From positions 1 through 32,410 of IMG/VR virus record IMGVR_UViG_3300031565_000211: DNA of 32,410 nucleotides; one strand, given 5' to 3'. Source of the stretch: a virus. The position numbers and the translations under genes were made by a program. Below, one piece after another: positions 4,619 to 26,302 of this stretch (the stretch's first letter is position 1; each line of letters starts with the position of its first letter). The notes under the pieces were generated by a model, which saw only the letters and a list, made by a program, of their open reading frames with translations, searched no databases and had not been told where the DNA came from.

Positions 4619-6129
4619 GGACTTTCTTCCTCATCAAAAGCAAGCTTAATTGAATAGAATTGATGCGCTACTTTTGTGCTAGTCGTAAATCTAAATGTTA
4701 CGTTCTTTGTCATTCCCTTTATATTCCAACGCATCTGTTTGTCATATTGGCCTTGTCTTCCCATTGACTTAGGCTTCTTTATTCCGTAGGTGTATCCACC
4801 ATCCTTAGAAATCTCAAGGTTTATAATCGGGTTCGCTTCTGGCCCTGTTAGGCTTGGAGTAGTACCAACTTGCCCGTCTAAAGTGACTCGCTTTAATTGC
4901 ATCAAATTAAGGTCAGACCAATAATTCGGAGTCACAAACTCTCTAGCGATTATAGTTCCATCATATTCAGTATATGCTTCATCTGAAATAGAAGCCAATA
5001 CACCAGCGTCCAACGTACCAGCAAACAACCCTTTAGAAGTATTCACGAAATACGCATAGGGCCAATATGTGTTAATCCCTTGATTCAATAACCGCTTTCC
5101 TCTGTCATGCCAAATAGGAGAGCCTAGCTCTTGGCTTGCTTTAATATCATAAACGATGGTTACGCCTTCTGATTGAAAAGTCAGTACATAAAACTGATCT
5201 GATCCAGAAGCATAGCACGATCCAATAGCACCATTTTTATCTGTGAAATCAGATATTCTTTCCTCTATGGATTCGGTGCTTATTCTTTGTATGCTTGTTC
5301 CATACCCCATATAAACGCCATTATTTCCAACGTCTGATGAGCCTAGCCAAAAGATCTTATTATCAATAGTTGCAGTACTATAGGTGGCCTCACATCCTAC
5401 CTCTTGGCTTGTTCCATCCACTAAAGCATATGGGTTATCCTGATTATCCGATGTGCTCCAAATCTCAAGAGTACGAAAGCCAAACGCCCAAATAAGATCG
5501 CCATTTAATTTGAATGCGCTTAATGGGTCGCTCTTGGTCTCTGCCGTGTAAAATGATGCAGGGTCAATATTTGAACTATTTAAATCTGAGTACATGAATT
5601 GATCACTAAATCCAGTGTCTACAAGCACCCTTTGTTTAAGGCTCATAATTTGTGTTGGCTGAATTTGTACCGCAGTACCCGGAGCCACTGGCAAAGATAC
5701 AGCAGTAAGAACACCAGCGCCATCTACATGATCCATAGGGCTTGTGTACATTCCAGAGCCATCTACAACAAAGAATAAACTCCTATTATTCGTCATTGAT
5801 ACAGGATTACCATTGTTACCGATAGTTCCAATCTCATAGGCTTGAGTCACGTTAATATCAAACCGATAGACCTTATCACCGAACACACCCCAAATACGAG
5901 AACCATAACTAGGGGCTGGCCCACTGCTAGACAAGTACAACCCTCTGCAAGTCGCATCATCAGTTGAAACATCTACGGCAGTCGTAGCACCCGGAGTAGT
6001 CTTCACAGTAATACGAACCTTTGCAGATCCATCACCATGAACAGAGGCCATATAGTTAACAGCTCTTGAAGAACTAAGGCTCTTGGCTTTTAGCTCAGAA
6101 GATTGTGCGATTAGATCAATCACCGCCAT
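4615..6129 (-). CDS. Packaged DNA stabilisation protein, P22 gp10-like tail hub
   Basis: A 504-residue protein in the place of P22 gp10 (472 residues), the hub that plugs the portal channel and stabilises packaged DNA. The sequence is beta-rich with many short strands and Gly/Asp turns. The N-terminal part (AVNYMASVHGDGSAKVRITVKTTPG) and segments such as SRIWGVFGDKVYRFD and QRVLVDTGFSDQFMYSD are the kind of repeats seen in this family. It starts inside the last codons of the gp4-like gene (10-base overlap) and its stop overlaps the next start, so the tail genes are tightly coupled. The call combines recall of the family with gene order. Confidence 0.75.
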   Translation of the reverse strand: MAVIDLIAQSSELKAKSLSSSRAVNYMASVHGDGSAKVRITVKTTPGATTAVDVSTDDATCRGLYLSSSGPAPSYGSRIWGVFGDKVYRFDINVTQAYEIGTIGNNGNPVSMTNNRSLFFVVDGSGMYTSPMDHVDGAGVLTAVSLPVAPGTAVQIQPTQIMSLKQRVLVDTGFSDQFMYSDLNSSNIDPASFYTAETKSDPLSAFKLNGDLIWAFGFRTLEIWSTSDNQDNPYALVDGTSQEVGCEATYSTATIDNKIFWLGSSDVGNNGVYMGYGTSIQRISTESIEERISDFTDKNGAIGSCYASGSDQFYVLTFQSEGVTIVYDIKASQELGSPIWHDRGKRLLNQGINTYWPYAYFVNTSKGLFAGTLDAGVLASISDEAYTEYDGTIIAREFVTPNYWSDLNLMQLKRVTLDGQVGTTPSLTGPEANPIINLEISKDGGYTYGIKKPKSMGRQGQYDKQMRWNIKGMTKNVTFRFTTSTKVAHQFYSIKLAFDEEESP

Positions 6130-11226: not shown

Positions 11227-11299
11227 TGGGGCTGGTAGGAATTGAACCTACGACCACTAGAATATGAGTCTAGCGCTCTTCCAACTGAGCTACAATCCC
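11227..11299 (-). tRNA. tRNA with CAU anticodon (Met, or Ile after lysidine modification)
   Basis: The minus strand folds into a full cloverleaf of 73 nt: D stem GCTC/GAGC, anticodon stem CTAGA/TCTAG with loop CTCATAT (anticodon CAT), and T arm GTAGG-TTCAATT-CCTAC. The acceptor stem GGGATTG/CAGCCCC has one A-C mismatch and one wobble. Discriminator A; CCA is not encoded. The first acceptor pair is G-C with no mismatch at position 1, so an elongator Met or an Ile2 tRNA is more likely than an initiator. Confidence 0.85.
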
Positions 11300-11303
11300 T
11301 TTA

Positions 11304-11376
11304 CTGCAAAAACTGGACTCGAACCAATAACCCCCTGATTAACAGTCAGGCGCTCTACCAATTGAGCTATGATGCA
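11304..11376 (-). tRNA. tRNA-Asn (GTT)
   Basis: The minus strand gives a 73-nt cloverleaf: D stem GCTC/GAGC, anticodon stem CCTGA/TCAGG with loop CTGTTAA (anticodon GTT), and T arm ATTGG-TTCGAGT-CCAGT. Discriminator G as usual for Asn. The acceptor stem TGCATCA/TTTTGCA has two mismatches (T-T and C-T), unusual for a functional tRNA. CCA is not encoded. It is separated from the CAU tRNA by four bases, so both are probably processed from one transcript. Confidence 0.8.
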
Positions 11377-13877: not shown

Positions 13878-13885
13878 TGTTTCTT

Positions 13886-13913
13886 CTCCTTTCTTGCCAA
13901 CATGGACGCTAGC
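13886..13913 (-). promoter_or_regulatory. Conserved leader hairpin plus ribosome binding site (copy 3)
   Basis: On the minus strand GCTAGC-GTCCAT-GTTGGC forms a six-pair stem (two G-T wobbles) around the loop GTCCAT, followed by AAGAAAGGAGAAG and the RNA ligase start. Two plus-strand cassette genes carry the same leader at 25361-25388 and 25875-25900, with different stem bases but the same loop. Confidence 0.7.
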
Positions 13914-14462: not shown

Positions 14463-14480
14463 TTCTTCTCCTTTGATTTC

Positions 14481-14560
14481 ATCTAACGTTCCGAGAATAA
14501 GCGAAGTTGCCAACGGCAATTTGGGAGAGCCGAAGGCGAACCGCTTATTCTTTGTTATGT
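14481..14560 (-). other. attC-type recombination site (minus array, site M2)
   Basis: On the minus strand the left core ACATAAC and right core GTTAGAT flank an 80-base imperfect palindrome. Inner arms GAATAAGCG and CGCTTATTC pair perfectly, and the apex contains two small hairpins (GCC-TTC-GGC and TTGCC-GTT-GGCAA). The right core matches GTTRRRY exactly; the left core fits RYYYAAC with one deviation. It overlaps the end of the 49-residue gene and precedes the 137-residue gene, the arrangement expected in a cassette array. Confidence 0.85.
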
Positions 14561-14694
14561 GATGGAATAGGTAACGGAACCTCCACCCATCCTGTTTGAT
14601 AACAAAACTCCCAAATCCTACCATCCTCACATAAAGCATAAAGCATCATGCCCCCGTCATTCCCTGCTGATGCAATCTGTATTATCTTCCCCAT
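14545..14694 (-). CDS. Small cassette gene, 49 residues
   Basis: Frame MGKIIQIASAGNDGG, then MMLYALCEDGRIWEF, ending PLPIPSHNKE. An AGGAG lies six bases upstream of the ATG. The motif YALCEDGRIWEF resembles a short repeat found in many small hypothetical proteins of phages and integron cassettes, reminiscent of one beta-propeller blade; I do not know the function. The stop codon falls inside the following attC site, typical of integron cassettes. The gene lies between two attC-like sites. Confidence 0.65.
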   Translation of the reverse strand: MGKIIQIASAGNDGGMMLYALCEDGRIWEFCYQTGWVEVPLPIPSHNKE

Positions 14695-14713
14695 ATAAAT
14701 CTCCTATTCTTTC

Positions 14714-14774
14714 ACATAACTTGTGGATAGACGACATTACCAGCAATACTCTGGATCATCTATCACCTTTGAAT
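14714..14774 (-). other. attC-like site (minus array, site M1)
   Basis: On the minus strand the right core is GTTATGT and the possible left core is ATTCAAA, with arms GATAGATGA and TCGTCTATC pairing over nine positions (one wobble). The right half, including TCGTCTATCCACAAGTTAT, is identical over 21 bases (14716-14736) to site P0 of the plus array (24838-24858). The left core is degenerate, so this may be a decayed or diverged site. It overlaps the end of the lipoprotein gene. Confidence 0.6.
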
Positions 14775-21928: not shown

Positions 21929-22057
21929 ATGCAGAAAGAAAACAGAAAAGCAAAGCTATATGGTGACTTCTTGATAGCGATTATCGTTATGCTACTAGGG
22001 GCTGCTGTAATCAAATCGATTTTTATTTCACTCAAAATTTTAGAGGTTATCCAATGA
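21929..22057 (+). CDS. Single-span membrane peptide, 42 residues
   Basis: MQKENRKAKLYGDFLIAIIV followed by MLLGAAVIKSIFISLKILEV and IQ. A basic start and one hydrophobic helix (about 14-37) predict an inner-membrane peptide with its N-terminus inside. It overlaps the next gene by four bases. Confidence 0.5.
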   Translation: MQKENRKAKLYGDFLIAIIVMLLGAAVIKSIFISLKILEVIQ

Positions 22058-22608
22058 ACGAAATTCGCGAATACCTAAAGAAATTCAACGCCTGTGAAGA
22101 AGGTTATGACTGGGCTGTGGAAAGCTGTACAACCATGCAAGAAGTATGGGACACCTGTAAACCTGAGTGGCTAATCTGGCTAGCAACCGATACAGATTGC
22201 ACAACTGACAGAGAAAAGCACGAGTTCGGATTAGCAGCAGCACAGCAAGTTGAGCACCTGATGACAGACCAGCGCAGTAAAGACGCTTTGAAAGTAAAGC
22301 GTAGGTGGTTGGATGGAGCAGCTACGGATGAAGAGTTTGAGACAGCACGGGAAGCAGCATGGGCAGCAGCACGGGTAGCAGCATGGGCAGCACGGGTAGC
22401 AGCACGGGAAGCAGCAGGGGCAGCACGGGCAGCACTGGAAGTAGCAGGGGCAGCACGGGCAGCAGCAGGGGCAGCAGCATGGGCAACAGCACGGGCAGTA
22501 GGGGAAGTAGCACAGGCAGCACGGTCAGCAGGGGCGGCAGCACGGGATACCCAAGCAAAATGGATTCGGGATAACCTAAAACCGAACTTTACAAGAGGTG
22601 CAAAATGA
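22054..22608 (+). CDS. Ala-rich repeat protein, 'putative immunity protein' family
   Basis: 184 residues. The N-terminal domain (EIREYLKKFNACEEGYDWAV, QEVWDTCKPEWLIWLA, then VEHLMTDQRSKDAL) matches a family common in gut phages and bacteria named putative immunity protein (Imm5-like). Residues about 88-165 are a run of AR-x-AA-type repeats (A, R, W, G, V, E), predicted to form a long amphipathic helix, ending in a domain-closing QAKWIRDNLKPNF. The coding DNA here is much richer in G and C than its neighbours and made of GCAGCACGGG-type units, so slippage is likely to change its length. The biochemical role is unknown. Confidence 0.7.
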   Translation: MNEIREYLKKFNACEEGYDWAVESCTTMQEVWDTCKPEWLIWLATDTDCTTDREKHEFGLAAAQQVEHLMTDQRSKDALKVKRRWLDGAATDEEFETAREAAWAAARVAAWAARVAAREAAGAARAALEVAGAARAAAGAAAWATARAVGEVAQAARSAGAAARDTQAKWIRDNLKPNFTRGAK

Positions 22609-24811: not shown

Positions 24812-24860
24812 GTTTAACGAATGGGATTGACGATGAGTGTCGTCTATCCACAAGTTATAC
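24812..24860 (+). other. attC-type site P0 (plus array)
   Basis: Left core GTTTAAC (fits RYYYAAC), right core GTTATAC, and arms GGATTGACGA / TCGTCTATCC that pair with one T-T mismatch around loop TGAGTG. At 49 bases it is the shortest. Its right half is identical over 21 bases with minus-strand site M1, yet the left halves differ. Confidence 0.75.
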
Positions 24861-24876
24861 AATATTGGAGGACAAT

Positions 24877-25077
24877 ATGAAATGGGACTTAGGGAATGAA
24901 CGAGAAGATTTCCAGGTTGGTGACAAAGTGGTAACGCGTAGCGATATGGGAAGTTTTAATTTAACAATTACTGCTATCCATAATAAACATTATTGTACGT
25001 GTAAGGGTTACGGAAAATCACGCCACTTTAACCTAAATGTCCTCCAACATCGTATAACAGCAGATACACAAAATTAA
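24877..25077 (+). CDS. Cassette gene 1, 66 residues
   Basis: MKWDLGNEREDFQVGDKVVT then RSDMGSFNLTITAIHNKHYC, with GGAGG seven bases upstream of the ATG; the open frame starting at 24802 overlaps attC P0 and is rejected. QVGDKVVTRSDMGSFNLTIT looks like a small beta-barrel of the SH3/KOW kind. It ends inside the next attC (P1), as cassette genes usually do. Confidence 0.65.
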   Translation: MKWDLGNEREDFQVGDKVVTRSDMGSFNLTITAIHNKHYCTCKGYGKSRHFNLNVLQHRITADTQN

Positions 25078-25105
25078 AACTTCGTGTATCTTCATGACGT
25101 TAGAT
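25052..25105 (+). other. attC-type site P1 (plus array)
   Basis: Left core GTATAAC, right core GTTAGAT (exact GTTRRRY). Arms AGATACAC / GTGTATCT pair perfectly. The left core deviates at one position. Overlaps the end of cassette gene 1. Confidence 0.85.
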
Positions 25106-25121
25106 GAAAAGGAATAGCTAA

Positions 25122-25304
25122 ATGATAAAGTTCGGATTTTTAAAGTTTGAGAATGAAGTTGATGATGTTTATTTATTGCCGACAATTTGTTTCGGTAAAT
25201 ATCATTCAACTAATGGATGGGGGTGTGGTATTGGAATCAAGTTTTTAAAACTGAGCATGGCAATAAGGTTTTTATATCCCGCATCATCATCTAACAGCGA
25301 ATAA
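25122..25304 (+). CDS. Cassette gene 2, 60 residues
   Basis: MIKFGFLKFENEVDDVYLLP then TICFGKYHSTNGWGCGIGIK and FLKLSMAIRFLYPASSSNSE. AAGGAATAGCTAA lies upstream of the ATG. The sequence is hydrophobic and Gly-rich in the middle. The last residues SNSE are encoded by attC P2. Function unknown. Confidence 0.55.
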   Translation: MIKFGFLKFENEVDDVYLLPTICFGKYHSTNGWGCGIGIKFLKLSMAIRFLYPASSSNSE

Positions 25305-25342
25305 ACGAAATTAAAACTTCGTGTATCTGCGGAACGTTATAT
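25289..25342 (+). other. attC-type site P2 (plus array), apparently chimeric
   Basis: Left core ATCTAAC (fits RYYYAAC), right core GTTATAT (two thirds of the GTTRRRY pattern). Arms GCGAATAAACGAA / TTCGTGTATCTGC pair at 10 of 13 positions. The left arm is the same as in P4, while the right arm is complementary to the left arm of P1, so the site looks recombined. Confidence 0.8.
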
Positions 25343-25360
25343 TCAATTTTGCGATAAAGA

Positions 25361-25388
25361 GCCATCGTCCATGCTGGCAAGAAAGGAG
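25361..25388 (+). promoter_or_regulatory. Conserved leader hairpin plus ribosome binding site (copy 1)
   Basis: GCCATC-GTCCAT-GCTGGC (five of six pairs) then AAGAAAGGAG. Same loop and ribosome site as the leaders at 25875-25900 and, on the minus strand, 13886-13913. Confidence 0.7.
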
Positions 25389-25396
25389 AAGGAAAC

Positions 25397-25786
25397 GTGA
25401 AAATAATAACTGAAATTAAAGTTATTGAAATTGAAGAAGATATATATGAACTAGCACAGGTAGTCAACAACCGCAATAATCGTTTTATTGAGTTTGGCGG
25501 TAAGCCAATATCTATTGAGACTGTTAGAGAGTTAATTAAGGGCCGTAGGTTTGTTGACACCAAAAGAGGATTGGATATAGTTTTAGGTTGTTCGTAGGAA
25601 GCAGGTGAAATATTACAGATACAGTATGATGCCTATGAAAATATGTCTCAAAGATTGGAGGATTTATATAAAGAAAATAAGGATATAAAGGGGCGTTTTA
25701 ATAGTGTGCTTAATGCGAAACTTTGGGCAAGATTAAAATATGTCTTTACCGGTGTAAAAGAAGAGAAGACCGCCATCCACGGCTGA
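25397..25786 (+). pseudogene. Cassette gene 3, interrupted by an in-frame TAG
   Basis: The frame starts at GTG 25397 after the conserved leader, gives 66 residues (MKIITEIKVIEIEEDIYELA ... RGLDIVLGCS), meets TAG at 25595-25597, and then stays open in the same frame for 62 codons (EAGEILQIQYDAYENMSQRL, KENKDIKGRFNSVL, KYVFTGVKEEKTAIHG) to TGA 25784-25786, just before attC P3. The second part is a typical charged helical sequence without its own ribosome site. A nonsense mutation in a 129-codon gene is the simplest reading. Alternatively the 66-residue frame alone is functional. No suppressor tRNA is present, and TAG ends other genes here. Confidence 0.6.
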
Positions 25787-25799
25787 ATCAAATAACATC

Positions 25800-25854
25800 G
25801 CCTAACAGCGAATATATAGACATTAAAACGTCACATATTCGCAGGACGTTAGGT
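25800..25854 (+). other. attC-type site P3 (plus array)
   Basis: Left core GCCTAAC and right core GTTAGGT, both exact matches to RYYYAAC and GTTRRRY. Arms GCGAATAT / ATATTCGC pair perfectly, with AGGAC leaving extra bases on the right arm as in real attC sites. The best site of the set. Confidence 0.92.
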
Positions 25855-25874
25855 GAAATTATTTGATTTAAGAT

Positions 25875-25900
25875 CCAGCGTCCATGCTGGCAAGAAAGGA
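25875..25900 (+). promoter_or_regulatory. Conserved leader hairpin plus ribosome binding site (copy 2)
   Basis: CCAGC-GTCCAT-GCTGG, a perfect five-pair stem, then CAAGAAAGGAGAAG. Precedes the HExxH cassette gene. Confidence 0.7.
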
Positions 25901-25910
25901 GAAGAGATGA

Positions 25911-26237
25911 ATGGTAAGCAAAAAAGTCAAGATAAAGATTACCCAAGATAATGACATCCCGGCGTTTGCGGCATTTGTTGCGACAACTGCAAATAGTGGG
26001 GAGGCGTGGTTTAAACTGAATATAAACGCAACCTTATGGGCCTGTGTTGAAAATGAAGAATTAGAGTTTTTTGATATTCTGTCAGAAAATACGGTACACG
26101 AAATGATGCATGCTTTTCAGGAGTTGTATAAGCGGGTGTTTGACGAAGAAGAAATTGAAAACGCAATATTACAAGCCCGTGAGAATTATAACGCAGAGGA
26201 AGAGGCCATCCGTGGCCGAGTCGCAAACGGCACATAA
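25911..26237 (+). CDS. Cassette gene 4, HExxH protein (possible small metallopeptidase)
   Basis: 108 residues, MVSKKVKIKITQDNDIPAFA ... FKLNINATLWACVENEELEF ... ENTVHEMMHAFQELYKRVFD. HEMMH is an HExxH zinc-binding motif (about residues 63-67), followed by an acidic helix that might supply the third ligand. The protein is small for a peptidase, so activity is uncertain. A competing ATG at 25907 in another frame gives only 14 codons. The 3' end overlaps attC P4. Confidence 0.6.
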   Translation: MVSKKVKIKITQDNDIPAFAAFVATTANSGEAWFKLNINATLWACVENEELEFFDILSENTVHEMMHAFQELYKRVFDEEEIENAILQARENYNAEEEAIRGRVANGT

Positions 26238-26285
26238 CAGCGAATAAACGAAATTAAAACTTCGCATATTCGCAGGACGTTATGT
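26232..26285 (+). other. attC-type site P4 (plus array)
   Basis: Left core ACATAAC, right core GTTATGT. These cores are perfectly complementary to each other though each departs from consensus at one or two places. Arms GCGAATAAACGAA / TTCGCATATTCGC pair at 11 of 13. Last recognisable site of the array. Confidence 0.85.
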
Positions 26286-26302
26286 GAAATTCAAAGGAAA
26301 AC

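Follow-up and report, generated by a model that had tools for sequence, protein, structure and literature searches.

In an integron cassette, the last R box matches the start of the same cassette, since both ends were joined in the circle. Bacillota are generally regarded as almost devoid of integrons. Cassette clusters in phages have been described previously: 17 attC clusters that lack an integrase were found in phages, including virulent ones, and IntI1 recombined five of the six phage attC sites tested (Qi et al., 2023; PMC9892861). IntegronFinder 2.0 reported one complete integron in Firmicutes (Limnochorda pilosa) and a few Firmicutes CALINs (PMC9024848). The integrons of archaea retain the IntI-specific domain (PMC9668308). 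A preliminary description of the phage locus analysed here regarded cassette arrays in phages as rarely described; the rarity stands, and such clusters are not new, as they already appear in the former study (PMC9892861).

The window, which is the whole stretch of DNA that was analysed, is a complete IMG/VR virus entry of 32,410 bases that is classed as linear, with completeness not given. Matches to PHROGs families cover the large terminase, portal, capsid, and head-closure proteins and identify the record as a phage. According to the ORF list, the plus strand carries the early genes between ~15.0 and 26.8 kb, and the late genes are on the minus strand. In the collections searched, the closest terminase matches share ~25–35% identity and a close phage relative was not found. 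No tyrosine recombinase is encoded in the whole 32,410-base record. Two tRNA genes (Met and Asn; 11227–11376, minus strand) adjoin the terminase, and a gene at 22054–22608 encodes an Ala-rich stretch in a series of 9- and 12-nt repeats.

Hairpin sites were located with a covariance model (R1) built from 12 sites, all of which lie outside the window. R1 matches the plus strand at P1 to P4 and the minus strand at P5, a site missed in the preliminary description (Table 1). The E-values of R1 are rough. All contigs behind the model were found via a 20-base pattern derived from P3 and P4, which limits the independence of R1 for these two sites; P1, P2, and P5 do not match this pattern. Eight of the 12 R1 sites (from L015, L016, and L018) have loops much longer than those of P1–P4, and the plus-strand sites of the window represent a compact form of ~55 nt. 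R1 gave zero matches in Vibrio, Shewanella, and class 1 integron sequence and in phages TJE1 and H101. A blastn search with P3 against phages and plasmids gave no significant match. Five plus-strand attC sites, P0 to P4, had originally been claimed and a covariance-model check proposed. Four of them are recovered by R1 (E 4e-10 to 2e-17) and P5 is added, while a model of canonical attC sites (R2) finds none of them anywhere in the window. P0 contains a GTTTAAC...GTTATAC pair and a hairpin, yet it is unmatched by R1; it was rejected as the fifth attC, and the insertion junction ahead of cassette 1 is the better interpretation. The cores had been described as RYYYAAC-like and GTTRRRY-like. P3 is indeed exact at both (GCCTAAC and GTTAGGT), and P1, P2, and P4 show single-base departures from the R-box consensus.

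Table 1. Sites, junctions, and cassettes of the two clusters in the window.
Feature	Position	Strand	Details
P1, attC-like site with flanks	25047–25110	+	R1 51.8 bits, E 5.4e-13
P2, attC-like site with flanks	25284–25347	+	R1 42.2 bits, E 3.6e-10
P3, attC-like site with flanks	25795–25859	+	R1 63.4 bits, E 2e-16
P4, attC-like site with flanks	26227–26290	+	R1 67.0 bits, E 1.8e-17; R' of P4 is the array end
P5, attC-like site	14476–14565	-	R1 42.0 bits, E 4.3e-10
Candidate attI-like docking site, junction before cassette 1, within P0	24838–24858	+	TGTCGTCTATCCACAAG|TTAT; R'' of P1 pairs 4/4
Second junction copy, before minus-strand cassette	14716–14736	-	Exact 21-nt identity; shuffles give 0
Cassette 1	24855–25099	+	Gene 24877–25077 (66 aa, orphan); start GTTATAC vs own R'' GTATAAC, 4/4
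Cassette 2	25100–25336	+	Gene 25122–25304 (60 aa; ORF list), ends inside P2; rule 4/4
Segment 3 (P2–P3)	25337–25848	+	Gene 25397–25597 and startless C-terminal remnant to ~25780; R'' of P3 vs preceding junction 1/4
Cassette 4	25849–26279	+	Gene 25911–26237 (108 aa, orphan), ends inside P4; rule 3/4
Minus-strand cassette	14487–14719	-	Gene 14545–14694 (49 aa), ends inside P5; start GTTATGT vs R'' ACATAAC, 4/4

The array in the window is real and cassette-like. As first described, the small genes are codirectional and arranged in tandem with a site at the 3' end of each; the site or its R'' box contains the end of genes 1, 2, and 4 and of the minus-strand gene. The cassette-end rule holds at all four variable bases at three of the five ends (cassette 1, cassette 2, and the minus-strand cassette) and is broken at the P2–P3 and P3–P4 junctions. 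The covariance matches, the cassette-end rule, and the codirectional genes that end in sites support the proposal of a gene cassette array in a phage. The label of integron-type attC is half retained: the logic is attC-like, but a canonical identity is not supported, as R2, a small model, has no match and the hairpin geometry differs. The plus-strand cluster comprises four sites of this distinct class and no recombinase, where a CALIN is defined by at least two attC within 4 kb and no integrase. The products of cassettes 1 and 4 have no Pfam match, homologues of the cassette 4 and minus-strand products were not found in phages, and the cassette proteins have no homologue among the other loci retrieved for comparison.

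Two pairs of 21-nt inverted repeats are located at cassette ends (24854–24874 with 25038–25058, 90%; 25786–25806 with 25848–25868, 86%). These repeats are much longer than the R boxes and are possibly a trace of cassette formation. Separately, the leader CGTCCATGCTGGCAAGAAAGGAGAAG occurs at 25366–25391 (plus), 25879–25904 (plus), and 13883–13908 (minus), ahead of three unrelated genes, one of which encodes an RNA ligase.

Segment P2–P3 carries an intact gene followed by a startless remnant, which fits a fusion of two cassettes by deletion, and from our reading of the sequence this is probably how the segment arose. The stem of P2 is weakened; its left half resembles P4 and its right half resembles P1. 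Both features, together with the lack of a recombinase in the phage, would suit a locus whose segments, originally copied out of a host array, persist as fixed blocks without activity. Such a relic, which is compatible with the class assignment and differs on present activity, is a possibility that we regard as rather unlikely. The hairpins of P1, P3, P4, and P5 are still well-formed, and related sites are associated with other genes in two further contigs (L014 and L134). Moreover, the two clusters, which differ in strand and are separated by 10 kb, each start directly after the same 21-nt TGTCGTCTATCCACAAG|TTAT, which also speaks against a relic. A sequence common to the front of both first cassettes would be expected of a docking site.

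The geometry of the sites was compared with that of canonical attCs. Across 144 related sites (20 Bacillota loci), pairing of the L arms is best along the whole stem when the right spacer exceeds the left by 4 nt, and the extrahelical base is absent. In contrast, 18 canonical attCs have equal spacers (offset 0) and then shift by one, as expected for an extrahelical base. The window sites exhibit the same 4-nt one-sided offset of the L arms without an extrahelical base and thus lack the symmetric spacers of the canonical form. In the 144 sites, 84.7% of cells are paired compared with 26–43% in slid controls; 483 cells are changed on both sides compared with 197 in shuffles, in an alignment fitted to the model, which favours the covariation result. 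In 108 of the 144 sites, the bottom strand folds more stably than the top strand, and DNA folding of the bottom strands of P3 and P4 yields a single helix with a 4-nt bulge. These features suggest that the window sites constitute a structurally distinct class that would be attC-like in its working.

An ordinary CALIN, with standard attCs recombined by a conventional IntI as in TJE1, H101, and P12002L, appears improbable. The R boxes, the hairpin, and the cassette ends do follow the same logic, attC sites are known to vary widely, and cross-recognition by IntI1 is plausible, given the activity of this enzyme on varied phage attCs (Qi et al., 2023; PMC9892861). R2, which was built from 18 sites of Vibrio, Shewanella, and class 1 integrons and is small, home-made, and distinct from the model of IntegronFinder, recovers canonical sites kept out of its training, one of them in TJE1 (1461–1520); however, it has no match at E<=10 in the window and no match in four Bacillota arrays. 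The one-sided offset without an extrahelical base likewise argues against standard attCs. Furthermore, no IntI above cut-off was found in the Bacillota genomes that bear such arrays, and the only one of 299 Bacillota genomes with an IntI above cut-off is without R1 sites.

Matches to R1 are present in 29 of these 299 genomes (E < 1e-4), and several of the arrays contain ten to thirty-odd sites in one direction. At 76 of 118 junctions in the Bacillota arrays, the R'' box of a site pairs at all four variable bases with the R' box of the preceding site, compared with a random expectation of 6.8% (binomial 2e-58, with junctions treated as independent); R'' pairs with its own R' at 11 of the 118. 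Non-mobile intergenic hairpin repeats dispersed by some other route (terminators, RNA processing sites, or REP-like elements), which could explain hairpins at gene 3' ends, the fact that P3 and P4 pair less well with the preceding R' than with their own, and leader sequences in common that suggest duplication, are highly improbable, as the cassette-end rule is not expected of terminators and such repeats do not account for conserved GTTA/TAAC boxes, strand polarity, unrelated genes between the sites, or the association with a recombinase.

Group IIC-attC introns are known to sit directly after attC sites, and one Bacillota array has a reverse transcriptase of the group II intron type directly after an attC-like site (L016, 5834–7042). 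Thirteen R1 matches were also observed in an archaeal MAG (Ca. Methanoxibalbensis; G006, locus L019); the site class may extend to Archaea.

Several Bacillota arrays begin behind a codirectional tyrosine recombinase. This recombinase scores at least 320 bits in 19 of the 299 Bacillota genomes, 11 of which are among the 29 with arrays (Fisher 5e-8). In a search that started from the recombinase, five loci missed by the site search (L110, L114, L115, L118, and L119) have codirectional sites downstream; no site was observed in the 10 kb examined downstream of a further full-length recombinase locus (L117). Some relatives of the recombinase stand alone, and many arrays are located far from any recombinase. 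In most loci, a junction that matches the end of the first cassette lies 76–270 nt past the stop codon of the recombinase gene, in many cases preceded by a short hairpin. The phage junction sequence has no obvious match to these docking sequences.

The array recombinase comprises a SAM-like domain and a catalytic domain, with an extra N-terminal stretch of ~75 residues. The additional domain specific to IntI is absent, and the proteins score below the integron-integrase cut-off TIGR02249. In a tree with a small outgroup sample, the array recombinases and some stand-alone relatives form a clade (96/90) beside IntI (100/99) and apart from Xer. A grouping of the array recombinases with IntI that omits the stand-alone recombinases was rejected (p-AU 0.0005), which is expected because the latter nest inside the array clade. 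As genomics, the evidence that links the site class to a recombinase other than IntI is strong.

Near-identical compact sites were found outside the window. They occur in a contig with phage replication genes, which is binned with a Halobacteroidaceae MAG and carries RecT, DnaC-like, and resolvase genes (L014), and in a contig binned with a Clostridia MAG that carries methyltransferase genes (L021). A single site of this form is present in an IMG/VR contig (L134) that has an RNA ligase family in common with the window. The distribution of these sites suggests that phages and Bacillota-associated contigs share one pool. In L134, recurring ACAACGG / GTTGTA junctions are also located between small genes (5300–5960, minus strand), perhaps another cassette-type array. 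The pattern TAACAGCGAATA..TTAAAAC gave seven matches in viral contigs, none with an attC fold; pattern matches in L012 and L023 were attributed to chance, and a match in L135, which falls within a coding gene, was discarded as a site. Neither general attC patterns nor the 19-nt junction had a match in scans of IMG/VR, and IntI-bearing Cloacimonadota loci yielded no arrays of the R1 type and one canonical site.

The best reading of the phage clusters is that they are recombinase-less and were captured from an IntI-independent, integron-like system. We assign a probability of roughly 0.7 to the whole reading, in which the window would hold two mobile cassette clusters with a distinct attC-like class of sites, served in trans by a host recombinase of the IntI-sister type. 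Three to four cassettes would form a small cluster at the end of the early plus-strand operon, with one cassette near the start of the late minus-strand operon. Each cassette would end in a folded single-strand recombination site with R arms of 7–9 bp and uninterrupted L arms, and the fixed 4-nt one-sided bulge would give the site its polarity. A recombinase of the Bacillota array type, which the host is assumed to possess, would act in trans and cut G|TTANNN on the folded strand. The cassettes would be released as circles and inserted at a docking sequence, a role that in the phage may be played by the 21-mer TGTCGTCTATCCACAAG|TTAT. Because the phage record has no tyrosine recombinase, its clusters would be CALIN-like cargo. 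We give even odds to the broader proposal of an IntI-independent Bacillota platform, which would combine codirectional arrays and bulge-polarised attC sites with a sister recombinase that lacks the IntI domain; phages would take cassettes from this platform and have a docking sequence of their own.

About a tenth of the sampled Bacillota species carry sites of this class. If the arrays are active, a large cassette reservoir would have been overlooked because the integrase profile and the attC geometry used in searches do not fit it. Activity would also imply that folded sites can be recombined without the IntI-specific domain and that phages move such cassettes. The short orphan genes of the phage clusters are candidates for counter-defence functions. 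A description of the Bacillota system was not found in the open-access literature, a scope that excludes most subscription journals and preprints and does not establish priority.

Like the CALINs of virulent phages, the window has at least two attC-type sites, small codirectional genes, and no integrase; those sites were found by standard attC models and tested with IntI1, whereas the window sites are missed by R2 and match the Bacillota class (Qi et al., 2023). Sedentary chromosomal integrons (IntI, attI, and attC) share the terminal hairpin site, the G|TTRRRY junctions, and the end-to-start matching of R boxes, and they share with the Bacillota arrays a docking site that adjoins the recombinase. 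In contrast to these integrons, the Bacillota recombinase is located codirectionally upstream and lacks the IntI-specific domain, and the sites have the 4-nt one-sided offset without an extrahelical base. The Limnochorda pilosa integron is also a Bacillota platform, but it was found by the IntI profile, whereas the present arrays have no IntI above cut-off; some of the Firmicutes CALINs of IntegronFinder 2.0 could belong to the present class. Within NCBIfam, the array recombinases best match NF040815 (recomb_XerA_Arch, 'site-specific tyrosine recombinase/integron integrase'), with scores that reach the cut-off or fall just short of it; they differ from this family in the ~75 extra N-terminal residues and in the link to cassette arrays. 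Phage cassettes are known, and what appears to be new, on genomic comparison, is a distinct site class tied to a non-IntI recombinase.
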